Assembly: GCA_031292215.1 (NCBI GenBank)
Contig: JARLHO010000090.1
Location: 1-46,815, forward strand
Source of the DNA: Syntrophobacteraceae bacterium
GTDB lineage: Bacteria > Desulfobacterota > Syntrophobacteria > Syntrophobacterales > Syntrophobacteraceae
Direction of reading: 5' to 3'
DNA length: 46,815 bases
The notes beneath the pieces are model-generated. The model searched no databases and was not told the origin of the DNA. It worked only from the letters and a program-made list of their open reading frames with translations. A program made the translations under genes and the position numbers. Numbering within the stretch: the first letter of the stretch is position 1; every line of letters starts with the position of its first letter. Shown in pieces: positions 1,270 through 35,637 of the stretch.

Positions 1270-1300
1270 GACACGGATGGACACGGTTGGACACGGGTGC
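1270..1300 (+). repeat. Short ACACGGATGG-type array
   Basis: Three consecutive degenerate 10-bp units (ACACGGATGG, ACACGGTTGG, ACACGGGTGC) lie between the secreted protein gene and the beta-barrel gene. Only one orientation is present here, unlike the paired arrays near 6.4, 7.9-8.4 and 34.9-35.6 kb. It is 34 bases upstream of the next ATG and may lie within its 5' untranslated region. Confidence 0.85.
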
Positions 1301-3707: not shown

Positions 3708-6395
3708 ATGTTGCCACAAAATATTCAGCCTCATTTGACCGACTACTACTACCGCATCCGCCGAAGGGGCTGGGTCGTAGTGTCCGCTCTTTTCCTCACG
3801 GTGCTGATTACCGCCCTGCACGTTTTTACGACCAAACCGGTCTACGAGGCGACCGCCGGGCTGATCGTAGACGCGGAAACGACCCGTTCGCCTTTGACCG
3901 GGGAGCAACTGCAGACCGGTGACCTCATGAGCGAGGATCTCACTTTCCGCACGCACTTGAAATTGATCACCTCCAAACCGGTCCTGGAAAAAGTGTTGGC
4001 CGAACTGGGCCCCCAGCCCAAAGGGCCCCGGAAGTTTAAGACGACCTTTTTGTCGAACCTGGAAGCCATCTTTGGAAAAAGCAAGGCGGTTCCCGGTCCG
4101 GAGGGCCAGTTGCTGCAAAGAGTGAACGGACTGGCGGGAAAGATCAAGGTCGACAGGGTGATGGGCACCCGTTTGCTGTCTATCCACGTGCAGGATACCA
4201 ACCCGAAGATGGCCGAAACGATAGCCAATTCCGTCGCCAACAACTACATTCTCTACGACACCGGGACGCGGCTCGACAGCTCCCGCAGGGTACTCGACTG
4301 GCTATCCAAAGAACTCTATGAAATGAAAAAGAAGGTGGAAACCGCCCAGATGGCGTTTCTCGCCTACAAGACAAAGGAGAACCTGATCTCCATCAAGGGC
4401 AACCAGAGCTTCAACCTGAGTAAAATTCAGGGGATGAATACCGACTTGATCAAAACAAAGAGCGATCGCATGGCGGCCGATGCCAACATCGTCGAGCTGA
4501 AAAAATTCATCGGCAGAGGCAATCTAAACGCTGTCCCAACTTTTCTAAACGACCCGATCCTTTCCGCCCTCAACTCTCAACTGGTGGAAGCCGAAGTCGA
4601 TTACCAGAAGCTTTCCGGCATTTATAAGCAGAAGCACCCTGAAATTGTCAAGATCACTTCCAAAATCGGTGAACTCAAAACCGAGATACGCGATCAGTTG
4701 CAAAAAGCCCTGACCAATGCGGAAGCCGCCCGCTCCGTGCTCATCGCCAGGGAGGGCTCACTGCAGCAGGCCATCGCAGGCATTGAAAAAGACGCCCAGA
4801 ACACCAACAAGAAAGCAGTCGGGTATTCGATCCTCGAACGCGATGTTGACACAAACACGCAACTCTACAATACGCTGCTCGCGAAGATCAAACAGTCCAA
4901 CATAACCGACCAGATCATGAAATCGAACCTGCGCCTCGCCCTGCCGGCGACGCTTCCCTTGGTTGCGGTGCGGCCGAAGAAAGCGAGCGCCATGACGATG
5001 GCCGTCTTTTTGGGTCTTGCCATCGGCATCGGCCTGGCCTTCTTCCTGGAATACATGGATCAAACCGTCTACAGCAACGAAGCTGTAACCGAGGCGCTCC
5101 AGATCCCCGTCCTCGCGGAAATTCCGCTGGAAGGCCCCGACCCCGCAAAAAAGGAAGAGCCGGGAAAAGGCCGTCCCCCCGTTCCCACAGTGCTGGAAGC
5201 GCCCTTTGCCGGCCACTTCTCGGAATCCTTCAGGCAGCTTGCCACCAACTTGCGGTTTTCGGAACTTAACCGCACCCGCGGGGTATACCTGATTACGAGC
5301 TGCAACCCGAAGGAAGGCAAGACGACTCTTACCTATAACCTCGGCTTGACCATGGCCCAGATAGGCATGAAGACCCTGGTAATAGATGCCGATCTTCGGA
5401 TTCCAAGCATCGGGAAAGTCGTTAAACTTAGCAAGGATCGGCCGGGCCTCACCGAAATACTGGCCAATTCGTTTAGCACCAAAATCACCGAAGGCGAACT
5501 CGGCGACCTCACCGTGGGAGATATTCACAAGCTGATCGAAATGCAGGAAAGAACCGGCGCCCTCTATTATCAAAACGAAAAAAACAGTTTCGCCGTAAGC
5601 TTCGTAAAAGGCCGTCTCGTCGACGTGGACTGGTCCACCCGGCCCGAAGATAAAAAGCTCGGAGGGCTGCTCGTCCGGTCCGGCAAAATAACCGGAGATC
5701 AACTGGAGATAGCTCTTGCCAGCCGGCAGGCCTCGACCGAAAGATTGGGGCAGGTGCTGCTTCACCTCGGCTTTATCGGCGTGGACGAACTGGCCGGCCC
5801 GCTCAGATTGCACATCCAGGAAAATATCGATGAGCTCAATCGATGCGGCCACGCGCAGTATCGTTTCGAAGAAAGACTTCCGTCGAGTTCTCCTTTCCAG
5901 GACTCGAAGGAAGCGGCGCTTATAGAAGCGATCGGCATTATCGACAACGACACGTTCCATTTGACCCCGTTTCTCATGGCCCAGATCGAGCAATGCCTCC
6001 ACCATGTGCCCGAACAAAATATGTGGGTGCTAACGAGCGGAAAGACCCCGCCCAACCCGCCCGAGCTTCTGGCAAGCAACCGCATGCGCGTCCTCGTCGA
6101 ATTGCTGCGCCGGCGGTTCGACACCATAATCATCGATTCGCCCCCGGTCGCAACGGTAAACGATGCCGCGGTGCTCGCCTCGCTTTGCGACGGATTGATC
6201 ATGCTGGTAAAGGCCGGCAGCACCGACCTGGTCGAACTGGAGCGCGCCAAGCAAAAGCTCGACAGCGTCCAGGCCCCCGTGATCGGCCTGGTCCTCAACA
6301 TGCTCGACTTCAAGAAGGACCCCTACTATTACGGCCGGTACTATTACAAGCGGTATGACAGCTATTACAAAAAATCCGATGTGGATGGACAGTAG
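3708..6395 (+). CDS. Wzc-type polysaccharide co-polymerase / tyrosine autokinase with PATAN-MshEN-like insert
   Basis: An 895-residue bacterial tyrosine kinase that controls polymer length and export. Order: TM1 (about 21-42), Wzz periplasmic domain with long coiled coils (about 45-420), TM2 (about 429-449), cytoplasmic kinase. Walker A is SCNPKEGKTT at 531-540, Walker A' is VIDADLR with D560/D562, and Walker B is IIIDSPP with D810. The C-terminus carries nine Tyr between 873 and 887, the autophosphorylation cluster. Unusually, about 185 residues separate GLTEILAN (about 581-588) from MWVLTSG (772), where ordinary family members have a short link. The insert has a DUF4388/PATAN-like part (from about 601) and two tandem LGxxL...G.I...L...L..Q repeats starting at K650 and R679, the MshEN pattern. 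An AAGG ribosome site sits upstream of the ATG. The likely antagonist is the phosphatase at 35.7 kb. Confidence 0.9.
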   Translation: MLPQNIQPHLTDYYYRIRRRGWVVVSALFLTVLITALHVFTTKPVYEATAGLIVDAETTRSPLTGEQLQTGDLMSEDLTFRTHLKLITSKPVLEKVLAELGPQPKGPRKFKTTFLSNLEAIFGKSKAVPGPEGQLLQRVNGLAGKIKVDRVMGTRLLSIHVQDTNPKMAETIANSVANNYILYDTGTRLDSSRRVLDWLSKELYEMKKKVETAQMAFLAYKTKENLISIKGNQSFNLSKIQGMNTDLIKTKSDRMAADANIVELKKFIGRGNLNAVPTFLNDPILSALNSQLVEAEVDYQKLSGIYKQKHPEIVKITSKIGELKTEIRDQLQKALTNAEAARSVLIAREGSLQQAIAGIEKDAQNTNKKAVGYSILERDVDTNTQLYNTLLAKIKQSNITDQIMKSNLRLALPATLPLVAVRPKKASAMTMAVFLGLAIGIGLAFFLEYMDQTVYSNEAVTEALQIPVLAEIPLEGPDPAKKEEPGKGRPPVPTVLEAPFAGHFSESFRQLATNLRFSELNRTRGVYLITSCNPKEGKTTLTYNLGLTMAQIGMKTLVIDADLRIPSIGKVVKLSKDRPGLTEILANSFSTKITEGELGDLTVGDIHKLIEMQERTGALYYQNEKNSFAVSFVKGRLVDVDWSTRPEDKKLGGLLVRSGKITGDQLEIALASRQASTERLGQVLLHLGFIGVDELAGPLRLHIQENIDELNRCGHAQYRFEERLPSSSPFQDSKEAALIEAIGIIDNDTFHLTPFLMAQIEQCLHHVPEQNMWVLTSGKTPPNPPELLASNRMRVLVELLRRRFDTIIIDSPPVATVNDAAVLASLCDGLIMLVKAGSTDLVELERAKQKLDSVQAPVIGLVLNMLDFKKDPYYYGRYYYKRYDSYYKKSDVDGQ

Positions 6396-6432
6396 GATTT
6401 CGATGGGCGCGGACATGGAAAAGGCAAAGGCA

Positions 6433-6518
6433 TGACACGGATGGACACGGATTTGCACAGATGACAGCTTCTGCGCTTCGCTCTTTTATCCGTGCGCATC
6501 CGTGTTCATCCGTGTCAA
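6433..6518. repeat. Inverted pair of ACACGGATGG-type arrays (solo hairpin)
   Basis: The left arm at 6433-6463 (TGACACGGATGGACACGGAT and one further degenerate unit) is matched by a right arm at 6486-6518 in the opposite orientation (ATCCGTGTTCATCCGTGTCA), leaving a loop of about 22 bases. It could fold into a long imperfect stem. It lies 38 bases after the kinase stop and contains the ATG used for the TPR protein, so its right arm is translated as part of that protein's N-terminus (peptide IRAHPCSSVS). Confidence 0.85.
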
Positions 6519-7954
6519 CTATTGGTTTGTTCTTGATTTGGGCCTCCGTGCGGCTTTTTAGCTTTACTGCTGCCGGCGTCTATGACCGGGTGGGCAGAGA
6601 AAGGCTAGAGGCGAAGCAGTATGAATCCGCCGAATCCTACTTTGCCAAGAGTGTCCGCCTGGCCGAAAGCAACCTCGATTACCGGTTGGACCTGGGCGAC
6701 TGCCTCTACGCCATGGCCGGCCAGGCCAAGGAGTACAAAACCGTCTTGTCCGATCTTCTCCAGGCAAGGCAGCAATACCTGAAGGCGACAGCTCTCAACC
6801 CCCGCGAGGGAAACGGTTGGTTGGGGCTCGCTCAGACCTGCTGGTGGCTCAGCCGCTTTTCCGGCCACAAAAAAGAGCTCGAAAACGTGGAATACTATTT
6901 TCAGCACGCCCTGTCGACCGACCCCAATAACGGGCAATTCCTGTACGGAATCGTGGGCTTTTACCTGGCTCAGCCCCCGGGAGAGCGAACCGGTCTTCCC
7001 GCTGACATCGAGCATCTTGCCGCCGTCTATCCCCAGGCGTACAACGATCTAAAAAAACTACCGAATTGGACCGGCGAGCGGCAGTCTGATTTTTTGAAAG
7101 GCCTTAAAATCGCGGCTTCAAACCAGCTTACCTGCGACTCGGCCCTCTCGACCCTCGCCGGCATCGCCGTAGAAACAAAGCAGTGGGGGGAGGCAGCCTC
7201 CTATACCGAGCGGCTCATAAGGCTAAGGGAGGATAGCAACCCGTCCTGTTCGGCCTATTTTGACCTGGGCTATTATCGACTGATGTCCGGGCGGGCGGAT
7301 GAGGCAAAAAAGGCGTTCCTCCATGGCCTGCAGATTTCCGACAATCGCCTCGAGGCTCTGGACAACCTCCTGTCCCGCCTGTCGGGCAGCGTCCATCAGA
7401 TAACCACCGTGTCTCTATCGGCGAAGGGCGTGTGCGACCTCTATCTCGACCTGGCCAAAGAGACCGGCGCCTTCGATCCGGAGGTTTTCTCCTCCCGGCA
7501 GATGATCCGGGGAAAGGCGTATCTTTACATCGCCGCTGACCTGGACGCCGCCGCAAAATGTTTTCACCGGGCGATCCAGGGACGTGACTCTGCTGCGCCT
7601 CACCGGTATTTGGCAGACATTGCGTCCAGGCGCAAAGACTGGGATGAGATGGAGATGGAAAGCCACCGGGCCACGCTCCTGGCCCCCAGCGACAGCGAGC
7701 TCTATTGCCTGTTGGCTACGGCTCTTCAGAACCAGCAGCGCTACATTGCCGCCCTTCAAGCCATCGATGAGGCGATAAAGCATTCTCCGCAGCCCAATGC
7801 CGGCTATTACAACTCAAAGGGCTGGCTCTACTGGGCGTTTAACGACTACCCCGACGCCATCAAGGCCTGGGAGGCCGCGGGCCGGATAGACCCGAAGGCC
7901 GGCTGGCCGCAAAGCCAGATAGCGAAGGCATACGAAATGCTGAAAAAAAAGTAG
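6461..7954 (+). CDS. TPR-repeat membrane-anchored protein of the polysaccharide locus
   Basis: A 497-residue protein with one hydrophobic N-terminal segment (GLFLIWASVRLFSFTAAGVY, about residues 22-41) followed by degenerate tetratricopeptide repeats, for example ESAESYFAKSVRLAESNLDY, DAAAKCFHRAIQGRD, IAALQAIDEAIKHSP and PDAIKAWEAAGRIDPKAG. TPR proteins next to wzc/waaL-type genes usually scaffold assembly or export components in the periplasm. The first 20 residues are encoded by the repeat arm at 6486-6518, so the annotated ATG may be an accident of repeat insertion; TTG codons at 6527 or 6533 are alternative starts just before the hydrophobic segment, with no obvious ribosome site. The stop codon TAG at 7952 abuts another repeat array. 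Confidence 0.75.
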   Translation: MTASALRSFIRAHPCSSVSTIGLFLIWASVRLFSFTAAGVYDRVGRERLEAKQYESAESYFAKSVRLAESNLDYRLDLGDCLYAMAGQAKEYKTVLSDLLQARQQYLKATALNPREGNGWLGLAQTCWWLSRFSGHKKELENVEYYFQHALSTDPNNGQFLYGIVGFYLAQPPGERTGLPADIEHLAAVYPQAYNDLKKLPNWTGERQSDFLKGLKIAASNQLTCDSALSTLAGIAVETKQWGEAASYTERLIRLREDSNPSCSAYFDLGYYRLMSGRADEAKKAFLHGLQISDNRLEALDNLLSRLSGSVHQITTVSLSAKGVCDLYLDLAKETGAFDPEVFSSRQMIRGKAYLYIAADLDAAAKCFHRAIQGRDSAAPHRYLADIASRRKDWDEMEMESHRATLLAPSDSELYCLLATALQNQQRYIAALQAIDEAIKHSPQPNAGYYNSKGWLYWAFNDYPDAIKAWEAAGRIDPKAGWPQSQIAKAYEMLKKK

Positions 7955-7984
7955 ACACGGATGGACACGGATTAACACGGATGG
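7954..7984 (+). repeat. Left ACACGGATGG array of the GxxExxY cassette
   Basis: Three units (GACACGGATG, GACACGGATT, AACACGGATG) begin at the last base of the TPR stop codon. They are the inverted counterpart of the array at 8385-8418, so together the two arrays bracket the small nuclease-fold gene. Confidence 0.9.
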
Positions 7985-7999
7985 AAGCCAGGGTTGGAT

Positions 8000-8380
8000 A
8001 TGAAGATTTCCGTGCCGGCAGAGGTGGAAAGTCTAACGGGCGCCGTTATTGGCGCCGCGTTCGAGGTTTTAAACTCGCTGGGGCATGGGTTTCTCGAAAT
8101 AATTTACAGGAAGGCCCTGGTTTATGAGTTGGGTGTCAGAGGTGTTGCTGTCGGAGAAGAAGTTCCTTTTGAGGTTAAGTACAAAAATGTAACACTCGGG
8201 AAATACTACTGCGATCTTCTCGTAGAGAATACGGTGGTGGTTGAACTGAAAGCCATTGAGCGGCTTAATCCCTCGCACACGGGGCAAGTGCTCAATTATC
8301 TCAAAGCCGGCGGCTTAAAGGTTGGCTTATTACTCAACTTCGGCACACCGCGACTGGAATACAAAAGAGTTATCTTGTGA
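8000..8380 (+). CDS. GxxExxY family protein (PD-(D/E)XK nuclease superfamily)
   Basis: A 126-residue protein containing the family signature GFLEIIY at residues 30-36. Downstream, D72 in YYCDLLV, then E82 and K84 in VVVELKA, and Q96 in TGQVLNYLK, fit the D...ExK...Q active-site pattern of PD-(D/E)XK nucleases, followed by the usual VGLLLNFG strand. The family is widespread but, to my knowledge, has no established biological role. The ATG at 8000 is preferred to a TTG six bases upstream. The gene is unrelated in function to its polysaccharide neighbours, sits in the TPR/ligase junction, and is bracketed by inverted repeat arrays, suggesting it arrived as a cassette. Its stop TGA overlaps the GTG start assigned to the next gene. 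Confidence 0.9.
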   Translation: MKISVPAEVESLTGAVIGAAFEVLNSLGHGFLEIIYRKALVYELGVRGVAVGEEVPFEVKYKNVTLGKYYCDLLVENTVVVELKAIERLNPSHTGQVLNYLKAGGLKVGLLLNFGTPRLEYKRVIL

Positions 8381-9723
8381 CAAATGTCAATCCGTGTCAA
8401 TCCGTGTCCATCCGTGTCGGGAATTTGGCCTTTGTTTTGCTCCTAATTTTCTCCCCGCTAGCCCAAGGATCCGCCCCGAGATGGGCCTTCTGCATCTGCC
8501 TGTGGCTAACCCTGGTAGCCTTTAAGGCCATGTTCCTTCGCCGCCTGTGGCAGGGAGAAACTATCCTCCCTCGATCGCCCATCGATCTACCGATTGCTGT
8601 CCTTATCATTTTTGCGGCGGCGTCCTGGACCTGGTCCATCTACCCCGATGCCACCCTGTGGGCTTTTCTTCGCCTCCTGCTCTACACGGCGGTATTTTAC
8701 ATGACAGTCGAGATGACCGAATCCAGGCGTCAAACCCGCCGCCTGGTCCAGGTTATCGTAGCCATGGGGCTTATCGTGTCTTTCCTGGGGTTGGTGAAAT
8801 ACGCAGGAGCCCCATTCCCATCTTTTTGGAAGGGCGAAGACCCCAACAGCCTGAATTCGACCTTCGTAAACCGCGATCACCTTGCCGGGTACCTGGCGAT
8901 GATTTTCACCCTCGGCCTGGGCATGGTCTTCCACCGAACCACCGATCGGGTGATGATCTGGGCCGGCGCTCTATTCGTGATCCTGGTCGCGGTATGCCTG
9001 AGCCTTTCTCGCGGGGCTTGGACAGGGATCTTTATCGCCGTCGAACTGATGCTTGTCCTGTTCATGGTCGGAAGAGAGGCTAAAAGGTTCAAAATAGGGA
9101 TCGTAGCCTCCGCTCTTCTGCTTGTTGTCGGTGTCACGCTGCTAGGCTCCAACGCCATGATCGCCCGGATGGAAACCCTGAAGTCGGTCACAGAAGACTC
9201 GTCATTCTATGGGCGGACAGTCGCCTGGGGCGGCAGCCTGAAAATTATCGAAAAATCCCCGCTCCTGGGCGCCGGCCTCGGCGCCTTTCCTTGGTCGTTC
9301 CCGTACGTTCGCCCCGCCGGCCTTACCATGCGCTGGCGCGAAGCCCACAACGACTGGCTCCAGATCGTCACCGAGCTTGGCCTCCCGGTGCTGCTCCCCC
9401 TCCTATGGGGACTGGGACTGCTATTTAGAAGAGGCCTTCGTATCTACAAGGCCACCCCCAGCCGATTGCAGGCCGGTGTCATTTTGGGGGCGCTAGGAGG
9501 CATCACGGCGATCCTGGTGCACAGCATCGTTGACTTCAACATTCAGATAACATCGAACGGGATTCTTTTCGCCTGCCTGGTTGGTCTTGCTGCCGGACCG
9601 TACTCATGGGCAGGCAAGACATTTACCCAATCCCCTGTAAATACTTTTAATGGCGGGTCTATTATTCCGACAACGGCAGGACCAGAGGATAGAGTCGATT
9701 GCGAACTGTATTTGACACCTTGA
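8377..9723 (+). CDS. O-antigen ligase / Wzy-type polymerase family membrane protein
   Basis: A 448-residue protein with about 10-12 predicted membrane segments. The central Wzy_C (O-antigen ligase) signature is visible: KIIEKSPLLGAGLGAFPWSF followed by EAHNDWLQIVTELG, including the conserved His in the periplasmic loop region and the following GLPVLLPLLW helix. Such enzymes either join undecaprenyl-linked glycan to lipid A core or polymerise repeat units; sequence alone does not separate these. The assigned GTG at 8377 overlaps the TGA of the GxxExxY gene, and the first 14 residues come from the repeat array, so the native start may have been lost or lie further in (the first helix begins near residue 16). 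The 3' end overlaps the TTG start of the FkbM gene by 25 bases. Confidence 0.85.
   Translation: MTNVNPCQSVSIRVGNLAFVLLLIFSPLAQGSAPRWAFCICLWLTLVAFKAMFLRRLWQGETILPRSPIDLPIAVLIIFAAASWTWSIYPDATLWAFLRLLLYTAVFYMTVEMTESRRQTRRLVQVIVAMGLIVSFLGLVKYAGAPFPSFWKGEDPNSLNSTFVNRDHLAGYLAMIFTLGLGMVFHRTTDRVMIWAGALFVILVAVCLSLSRGAWTGIFIAVELMLVLFMVGREAKRFKIGIVASALLLVVGVTLLGSNAMIARMETLKSVTEDSSFYGRTVAWGGSLKIIEKSPLLGAGLGAFPWSFPYVRPAGLTMRWREAHNDWLQIVTELGLPVLLPLLWGLGLLFRRGLRIYKATPSRLQAGVILGALGGITAILVHSIVDFNIQITSNGILFACLVGLAAGPYSWAGKTFTQSPVNTFNGGSIIPTTAGPEDRVDCELYLTP
8385..8418 (-). repeat. Right ACACGGATGG array of the GxxExxY cassette
   Basis: Units TCAATCCGTG, TCAATCCGTG and TCCATCCGTG read as ACACGGAT units on the opposite strand. 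The array starts four bases after the GxxExxY stop codon and is translated in the next open frame as NPCQSVSIRV. Confidence 0.9.
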
Positions 9724-34890: not shown

Positions 34891-34922
34891 GACACGGATG
34901 AACACGGATGAACACGGGGATG
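34891..34922 (+). repeat. ACACGGATGA array (left, after the WecA-like gene)
   Basis: GACACGGATG, AACACGGATG and AACACGGGGATGG begin 18 bases after the stop codon. The opposite-orientation array at 35585-35637 bounds the other side of a roughly 700-base gene-poor stretch. Confidence 0.85.
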
Positions 34923-35148
34923 GAACCCACTATCCCGGGCCAGTTGCCGCATGGACTTTTGCCGTTTCTGGTCGCCGTTTCTTTTGCCGCTCCTCGTTTC
35001 CGTTTCTCGTTGCCGCTTTGCGGCCCAATACAGCCCCGTGGTATATTCCTTGGCCATGCCGCTCTTTAGCCATTCCGCTCTTTTACAAATGAATAGGACC
35101 GCTTCGCACTTCCGATCGCCAATCACTGCTCTTTGCTGTTAATACGCC
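34923..35148. other. Gene-poor stretch inside the repeat-bracketed region
   Basis: No coding sequence is recognised. It contains loose repeats of GTTTC/GCCG words (for example CCGTTTC, CCGTTTC and CCGCT between about 34960 and 35030) and open frames that are merely the translation of the repeats. Confidence 0.35.
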
Positions 35149-35192
35149 GTTACCATGCTGTTACCATGCTGTTACCATGCTGTTACCATGCT
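35149..35192 (+). repeat. 11-bp tandem repeat, four perfect copies
   Basis: GTTACCATGCT is repeated four times without a mismatch, followed by two decayed copies (GTTATTCACGCT and GATACCCATGCT). It lies outside any gene and could vary in copy number between strains. Confidence 0.85.
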
Positions 35193-35376
35193 GTTATTCA
35201 CGCTGATACCCATGCTGTTAGCCGGCTGTTCTTTTGGGGCTATGAATCGAGTATGATAAGAAAAATCAGTGGGTTGTAAAATGCACGGCTGTGTTTTTCC
35301 CTGTATTATCAGCAGTGGAGGTTTTTGTTTCCCCTTCGCTGCCGGCCCCCGGTAAGTGTTCGCAGCCGCTGAGATC

Positions 35377-35475
35377 ATGAAGAGACCCAAGCTGATAAGC
35401 CATCTCGAAAAACATGGCGCATACCTCTGGCAATGCGCAGGAAAAGAGCTACGAGGAACTGCTCGAATCCCTTAG
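35377..35475 (+). pseudogene. Possible truncated HicA-like toxin remnant
   Basis: The 32-residue frame begins MKRPKLISHLEKHGAYLW, close to the usual N-terminus of HicA mRNA interferases (MKR.xLI.hLekhG), then diverges and stops before the catalytic His region. That His-containing strand is missing, so any product would be inactive. The assignment is tentative because only about 17 residues match, and no intact HicB follows. Confidence 0.3.
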
Positions 35476-35572
35476 AATCGGGGCCGAAGATATGCTGAGC
35501 GCGCAAATCCCCTTCGAGCCGGGAGCGCAGATGACCACAATCGAAATTCCCGATCCCGATTGGGCGGCGTAA
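35414..35572 (+). CDS. Small hypothetical protein or remnant
   Basis: A 52-residue frame rich in Glu and Ala that ends TTIEIPDPDWAA. Tail sequences like EIPDPDW look like the end of a small antitoxin or PIN/HicB neighbour, but I recognise no family. It overlaps the HicA-like remnant in another frame, so it is probably another fragment of a decayed toxin-antitoxin module. No clear ribosome site is seen upstream. Confidence 0.25.
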   Translation: MAHTSGNAQEKSYEELLESLRIGAEDMLSAQIPFEPGAQMTTIEIPDPDWAA

Positions 35573-35584
35573 CTTTGCACCAAG

Positions 35585-35637
35585 TGTAAATCCGTGTCCA
35601 TCCGTGTAAATCTGTATACCCGTGTCTATCCGTGTCC
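35585..35637 (-). repeat. ACACGGAT array (right, before the phosphatase gene)
   Basis: Degenerate units read on the minus strand (TCCGTGTCCATCCGTGT and TCTATCCGTGTCC on the plus strand), ending 28 bases before the ATG of the phosphatase gene, so it lies in that gene's leader. It is the inverted partner of the array at 34891-34922. Confidence 0.85.

Follow-up and report, generated by a model that had tools for sequence, protein, structure and literature searches.

Repetitive extragenic palindromic (REP) elements associated with RAYT (TnpA-REP) genes are small palindromic repeats with many gene-less copies, accompanied by a short gene that lies within inverted repeats and encodes a Y1/HUH transposase to which the repeat is matched. 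Free-standing homing endonuclease genes are small nuclease genes of patchy distribution, which occur as empty and occupied alleles and cause little disruption of their neighbors, while miniature inverted-repeat transposable elements (MITEs) and insertion sequences are characterized by terminal inverted repeats, short non-autonomous copies and insertion between genes. Among the RecB-like nucleases, Cas4 possesses four conserved cysteines for an Fe-S cluster. Here we analyze a locus with likenesses to all of these, found in contig JARLHO010000090.1 of a Syntrophobacteraceae bacterium (assembly GCA_031292215.1; positions 1 to 46,815, i.e. one entire contig, hereafter "the window"). It is a cassette composed of an inward-directed array of short words, a GxxExxY gene and an inverted array, and we propose that it is probably a minimal autonomous mobile element, the word of the arrays being the cognate DNA site of the element's own nuclease. 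Its parts are:

7954..7985, + strand: upstream arm, with three CACGGAT words from 7956, 7966 and 7976 (10-bp period), aimed at the gene
8000..8380, + strand: GxxExxY gene (126 aa, predicted PD-(D/E)XK fold), with an ATG start, identified by profile match, alignment and model
8387..8418, - strand: downstream arm, with three inverted words (ATCCGTG on the + strand at 8390, 8400 and 8410)

The two arms (7954-7985 and 8387-8418) exhibit 94% complementarity over 32 nt, and the upstream arm begins at the TAG stop codon (7952-7954) of the preceding gene. The original prediction, made from the sequence of the window alone, had described a nuclease-fold gene between inverted arrays of a 10-bp word, the upstream array abutting the stop codon of the flanking gene. 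All these features were found, with the correction that the repeat unit is better described as the heptamer CACGGAT followed by a 3-nt spacer. ACACGGATGG is present in 6 copies in the window (0.05 expected), a number reached in none of 100 shuffles.

The product of the gene matches TIGR04256 (GxxExxY) with 140.4 bits (cut-off 35) and PF13366 (PDDEXK_3) with 135.1 bits (cut-off 22); these are the only matches in Pfam and NCBIfam to the open reading frame (ORF) between the arms, and no recognized transposase is among them. In an alignment of 16 sequences, including that from the window, D72 is invariant and E82, K84 and Q96 are conserved in at least 90%, in agreement with the earlier assignment of these four residues to PD-(D/E)XK positions; E33, Y36 and Y100 (the latter present in 13 of the 16) are further motif residues. 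The AlphaFold model based on 16 sequences (pLDDT 94.8, pTM 0.87) identified as its best match in the PDB the structure 4ic1 (SSO0001, which we take to be a Cas4), with a Z of 10.4 and an rmsd of 3.2 for 98 residues, followed with lower scores by other nucleases, which include LHK-Exo, lambda exonuclease and MGME1 (all three reported by Foldseek) and Hjc. With Q96-xxx-Y100 presumably corresponding to the QxxxY motif of the RecB type, the modeled protein looks like a compact RecB/Cas4-type nuclease (D72, E82-x-K84, Q96-xxx-Y100) devoid of iron-sulphur cysteines; since the 126-aa sequence contains a single cysteine, there is no four-cysteine cluster. The dN/dS ratio is 0.03-0.24 in 13 of 14 gene pairs (one pair is saturated and some dS values are near saturation), and therefore the GxxExxY gene appears to be maintained by purifying selection.

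The loci used to study the family came from named genomes (18 loci, from Proteobacteria, Acidobacteriota, Geobacter, Methanothrix, Hymenobacter and others), from 59 relatives, from the 17 genomes in which the named loci reside and from a set of 345 genomes within the phylum. GxxExxY matches over the cut-off are present in 31 of the 59 relatives and in 121 of the 345 sampled genomes of this one phylum, and homologs occur in other phyla; the loci fetched are a part of the matches in the phylum, mostly the best-scoring ones rather than a random draw. After removal of 36 fragments, 18 genes at locus edges and 26 duplicates, 261 profile matches yielded 181 non-redundant intact genes, which include, counted once, an earlier sample of 67 genes (57 of them at or above the threshold given below). 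For each gene we scored the best ungapped inverted repeat between the 300-nt flanks, with a threshold score of 14. A strong inverted repeat spans the flanks of 143 of the 181 genes, and after clustering at 60% protein identity 41 of 55 representatives still pass. In the controls this level was reached by 3 of 345 blocks that had been shifted along the loci, by 5 of 181 mispaired flanks and by 4 of 70 further small ORFs from these loci. Among seven remote plasmid-borne homologs the repeat was found in three (Bacteroides finegoldii, Bernardetia and Sphingomonas). A direct repeat scoring at least 15 is also common to both flanks in 75 of the 181 loci; when the twelve strongest of these were read individually, they often turned out to contain whole palindromes on both sides. 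No family of neighboring genes (ORFs of at least 90 codons within 1.5 kb, a size limit that leaves out smaller antitoxins) was present at more than 10 of the 181 loci, and therefore the cassette appears to act alone.

A different repeat of ~80 bp was observed just 5' of the GxxExxY gene at locus L174 (1404-1484, genome G088) and also in G125, G160, G188 and G215, with many near-identical copies per genome.

The arms are built of head-to-tail heptamers of the shape CRCNRAN, separated by 1-3-nt spacers, which results in a period of 8, 9 or 10 and rarely 11. The words include CGCAGAG, CACAGAG, CACGGAT, CGCAAAG, CGCAGAT, CGCGAAG, CACGAAG, CACAGAT, CACAAAG and others, with off-shape words at some loci (ACAGGAT). 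They point predominantly inward, with 382 forward words upstream and 421 reverse words downstream, against 167 and 121 directed outward. At least 4 tandem words were found for 136 of the 181 genes (a level also reached by 21 of 343 control blocks), and these 136 typed genes were used to compare words with proteins. Agreement between two genes in the top word increases with protein identity, from 0.7% of pairs (at 30-35%) through 22% (60-70%) and 72% (70-80%) to 90% (above 80%), the closest pairs including orthologous loci. A Mantel test of word against protein similarity gave 0/500, and the whole word changes 61 times on the protein tree, as compared with a mean of 106.6 for shuffled labels (minimum 100 in 300 shuffles). 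Two or more typed genes are present in 30 genomes; in these, the whole word of a gene recurred at its nearest protein from a different genome in 46 of 76 cases and at a genome-mate in 20 of 134 ordered pairs (Wilcoxon p 3e-12). For example, CACGGAT is also found at the genes of the nearest relatives of the window protein, in genome G007, in Magnetospirillum aberrantis and in a proteobacterial assembly, whereas its genome-mate at locus L118 is flanked by CGCGAAG. Thus, as judged from these comparisons, the word follows the protein and not the host, and each clade of nucleases tends to have its own word of the CRCNRAN shape. The expectation of the original prediction that GxxExxY genes elsewhere would be flanked by the same 10-bp word in inverted orientation stood as far as the association is concerned; a single word common to all was rejected. 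Clade-specific words are stronger evidence for the pairing of nuclease and repeat than one common word would be.

Candidate determinants of this specificity lie in the vicinity of the catalytic motifs. Residues 31 and 99, which are positioned beside E33 and Q96/Y100, respectively, correlate strongly with the last base of the word: L31 accompanies G at base 7 in 75 of 81 cases and F31 accompanies T, A or C in 48 of 51. For residue 17 and base 5, of 6 pairs 3.0 change in the same way and 0.1 in the opposite way, which is not significant. The word may be read by residues 31, 99 and 103 for the last base and by residue 17 for base 5.

Arrays also occur away from GxxExxY genes. A search of the 59 genomes with two generic triple-word patterns yielded 1107 matches (up to 161 per genome, a count that includes gene-side arrays and overlapping matches), while reversed control patterns gave 2 in total; many of the matches listed form +/- pairs ~45-80 bp apart, i.e. 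short hairpins. Of the 31 genomes that have a gene over the cut-off, 24 contain two or more array matches, as do 8 of the 28 without (Fisher p 2.3e-4, an approximate value because the genomes are related), so the arrays are not equally common in genomes devoid of the gene.

The gene, together with at least one array, exists in near-identical copies at sites that are unrelated to each other. One block of ~400-430 bp is common to three genes of G003 (88-89% DNA identity), and such gene-array blocks are also common to two genes of G037, to two genes of G355 and to a pair from Thiosymbion and G037; outside the block, only short repeat matches (<120 nt) are found among the best matches listed (up to seven per pair), over 1.5-2 kb on each side. 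Other pairs are orthologous, with flanks conserved over at least 1 kb, so the copies can also persist.

The most informative site is that of locus L219 in G207, where a cassette of ~562 bp lies between two neighboring genes. Of six comparable genomes it is present in two, G207 and G395, and absent from four, in which the flank matches are separated by 9 bases (G279), 0 (G300), 0 (G359) or 58 (G078); G257, G320 and G378 are not among the six, because the matches to their flanks are one-sided, split between contigs or located at the end of a contig. The two flanks of G300 join in an overlapping stop/start, TAATG. Orthologous sites with and without the cassette, as envisaged originally, therefore exist, and two of those without it have no extra bases. 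The cassette genes of G207 and G395 are 82% identical, their flanks 71-74%, and the flanks of G207 are nearer to those of the cassette-free G279, a pattern that fits transfer into the same site. An insertion in G038 (L318, G038:C67) relative to G026 was rejected as a cassette; it is an unrelated intergenic repeat of ~165 bp from another family. For the window's own site no empty ortholog was found: the sole match to the downstream ligase gene at the DNA level outside G000, in G006 among 11 genomes of the genus, ends with its contig just upstream.

Two adjacent cassettes, 97% identical over 480 bp, were observed at L252 (G220:C3), with a third GxxExxY match nearby.

From these comparisons we infer that the nuclease cuts its own words and thereby drives the spread of the element. 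In the mechanism we envisage, the single-domain RecB/Cas4-like nuclease with the QxxxY motif would bind successive words, spaced about one helical turn apart, and cut in or beside them, either in the duplex or in a hairpin formed by the inverted arms. The break would then be repaired with a cassette-bearing copy as the template, by way of homology between arrays, and the gene and its arms would thereby be copied to the new site, as a homing-like gene conversion between arrays. Gene-less arrays would be both targets and non-autonomous derivatives, and a change in the specificity of the nuclease would be followed by a concerted change of both arms. The earlier view of a candidate minimal mobile cassette, belonging to one element family with and without cargo, is thus supported, with the amendment concerning the word. 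More tentatively, we suggest that GxxExxY proteins could be the mobilizing enzymes of an undescribed, transposase-free class of elements in bacteria and probably archaea, defined by a RecB/Cas4-like nuclease, a clade-specific and evolvable word (CRCNRAN) in inverted tandem arms, array-to-array copying provoked by the nuclease and the shedding of gene-less hairpins in large families.

A number of observations weigh against this interpretation. Of the 181 genes, 38 remain under the repeat threshold, as do two of the five GxxExxY genes in the source genome, L115 (9.0) and L116 (12.6), the latter with visible ACAGGATTA arrays. Four of the seven remote plasmid-borne homologs also fail, that from Treponema having one matching word per side and the other three weak repeats or none. 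The correlations of residues 31, 99 and 103 with base 7 mostly reflect one deep split (6 changes between G and non-G on the tree) and are not significant after correction for phylogeny; we hold this residue code as a lead only, because there are just 3 independent pairs on supported branches. Among the 8 of 28 gene-free genomes that carry arrays, G049, G050 and G053 have 12 to 73 matches (73 in G050) and no detected GxxExxY gene. Some genes may have been missed, because 5 of the 8 are less than 90% complete (G002, also among the 28, has a match below the cut-off); the remaining ones would be orphan families. The block common to mobile copies lacks one of the arrays in some cases, no target-site duplication could be defined (a short A/T-rich overlap at the G207 site is indistinguishable from chance), and the discordant occupancy of G207 and G395 could also result from differential loss combined with slow evolution of the gene. 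Finally, two further sets of orthologous sites were rejected as clean empty sites. In genus g21, G052 and G054 keep the 3' end of the gene and an array, i.e. they carry a deletion, while G042, G044 and G050 have a lone word and no gene; in genus g42, G160, G215 and G188 have gene-less arrays with other words. At yet another orthologous site, that of L015 and L167, the two nucleases are only 43% identical and the words differ in both arms. Taken together, the g21, g42 and L015/L167 sites suggest repeated reuse of the same positions.

The chief rival explanation is that the arrays are MITE- or REP-like repeats moved by an unrelated enzyme of the host or of a transposon, the nuclease gene being a frequent or captured cargo. 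Such a passenger role would account for the large excess of array matches over genes and for the arrays in gene-free genomes. It would not lead one to expect a word that goes with the nuclease and not with the host, its changes paralleling the protein tree, nor that 143 of 181 nuclease genes should be bracketed while no other family of at least 90 codons lies beside more than 10 cassettes. Primarily because of the pairing of word and protein, we regard this explanation as unlikely.

Alternatively, the arrays could be operators of the nuclease or sites of self-protection, in an addiction or defense module (for instance one in which the nuclease is restrained by the arrays), with mobility being secondary. 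A cognate pairing would be expected here too, and there are weak profile matches to the candidate defense family PDC-S02 (PADLOC; best E 5.6e-5, covering residues 38-103 only, with no curated cut-off shown) and to Cas4 (E 0.0098). A scan of 8 window proteins revealed no Cas protein, no CRISPR search having been made. An operator explains neither the presence of arrays on both sides nor the standalone gene-less copies, no partner gene of at least 90 codons recurs, and no GxxExxY match was found in phage records, all of which makes this possibility improbable.

A third explanation places the function at the RNA level, with the arrays acting as stem-loops in the transcripts of operons (as an attenuator or a processing site) that the protein processes. 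Most cassettes closely follow the upstream gene (median distance 15.5 nt; 106 of 140 nearest ends are same-strand stop codons) and are therefore probably transcribed, and the gene-less copy in the window folds strongly, as computed for DNA (6430-6520 as a single strand, -25.9 kcal/mol against -11.2 for shuffles, z -6.3; none of 200 shuffles as low). Nonetheless, the best-scoring solved structures are mostly nucleases acting on DNA, though tRNA splicing endonucleases appear among them, no Rfam match was found in the window, and similar cassettes occur in unrelated surroundings; we consider processing of RNA very improbable. A mere coincidence of a small gene with common short repeats, conceivable insofar as each array by itself is short, is hardly credible, being refuted by the shuffle, shifted-block, mispaired-flank, small-ORF and reversed-pattern controls and by the pairing of word and protein.

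Besides the cassette, which we continue to regard as a probable mobile element, the window contains its two neighboring genes, the upstream one encoding a tetratricopeptide repeat (TPR) protein, and several gene-less arrays:

1270..1299, + strand: lone degenerate array with one exact ACACGGATGG
6434..6516, no strand assigned: gene-less palindromic copy of the same word (arm, short loop, inverted arm), with the ATG of the TPR gene (6461) inside
6461..7954, + strand: upstream neighbor, TPR protein of the exopolysaccharide region, whose stop codon adjoins the upstream arm
8530..9723, + strand: downstream neighbor, O-antigen ligase (Wzy_C), whose open frame extends 5' of the ATG through the array
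34891..34909, + strand: left array (two words) of a further gene-less pair
35590..35636, - strand: right array of that pair, degenerate, with words at 35590, 35600 and 35628

The gene-less copies pointed out in the original prediction, the palindrome at 6434-6516 and the inverted pair at 34891-35637 (arrays ~680 bp apart), are thus real, and the family search reported a single GxxExxY match on this contig. The GC content of the GxxExxY gene is 48%, against 57-58% in both neighboring genes. The downstream arm is in frame with the gene for the O-antigen ligase, the 5' part of which is similar, by eye, to its counterpart in G006 as far as the array edge.

Over 6461-6518, the gene-less hairpin upstream provides the ATG and the first codons of the TPR ORF, and therefore arrays can turn into coding sequence. 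Between the arrays of the distant pair (34930-35571), an 11-bp word is repeated in tandem near 35150-35196, and a short ORF from 35380 looks, by eye only, like the start of a HicA-like toxin. Further upstream, a Wzc-like chain-length/kinase protein (Wzz, GNVR, AAA; 3708-6392) exhibits a DUF4388 domain match at residues 595-746.

The source assembly (4.89 Mb in 177 contigs) contains five GxxExxY genes, of which three pass the repeat test: that in the window (score 27.6), L117 (24.6) and L118 (30.6). Exact double CACGGAT words (ATCCGTGTNNATCCGTG) occur at 8 places in the genome, all in the window contig, while the words flanking the other four genes, as read by eye, are ACAGGATTA, CACGAAG, CGCGAAG and a weak CAGAG type. 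The possibility that the contig is a foreign, mis-binned piece, raised by its genome-unique word, is unsupported by GC content (55.2%, compared with 54.6-57.2% around the other four genes).

In the open-licence literature (preprints and subscription papers being outside this scope) we found no account of an association between GxxExxY genes and arrays, nor is there one in the GxxExxY passages of PMC12085832 and PMC8934634. The family model carries only the label "GxxExxY protein", and the family lines returned for TIGR04256 and PF13366, to which the window protein belongs according to the curated cut-offs, are silent on arrays and mobility. A natural series of nucleases that each come with a presumed target word would make a recognition code directly accessible, and such nuclease-word cassettes would account for a type of hairpin repeat that is widespread. 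Should the nuclease indeed drive mobility, DNA would be moved here without a transposase, an integrase or a reverse transcriptase.

In comparison with the known systems, the GxxExxY protein resembles Cas4, lambda exonuclease, LHK-Exo and MGME1 (RecB-like) in the fold and in the arrangement of the D, ExK and QxxxY motifs. It differs from Cas4 in its size (~126 aa) and its one cysteine, and the adjacent genes in the window encode a TPR protein and an O-antigen ligase. With MITEs and insertion sequences the cassette shares terminal inverted repeats, short non-autonomous copies and an intergenic location, but it has no recognized transposase or defined target duplication, and the word of its terminal arrays varies with the protein. 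Like a free-standing homing endonuclease gene, it is a small, patchily distributed nuclease gene that leaves its neighbors little disrupted and has occupied and empty alleles of one site (that of L219, not the window's own); unlike such genes, it has candidate target words within its arms, occupies numerous unrelated sites and is accompanied by non-coding derivatives. REP elements with RAYT genes are similar in their palindromic repeats with gene-less copies, in the one short bracketed gene and in the repeat that matches the enzyme. However, the only gene of the cassette encodes a predicted PD-(D/E)XK nuclease instead of a Y1/HUH transposase, and its repeat consists of tandem 7-bp words, whereas a REP is one imperfect hairpin.

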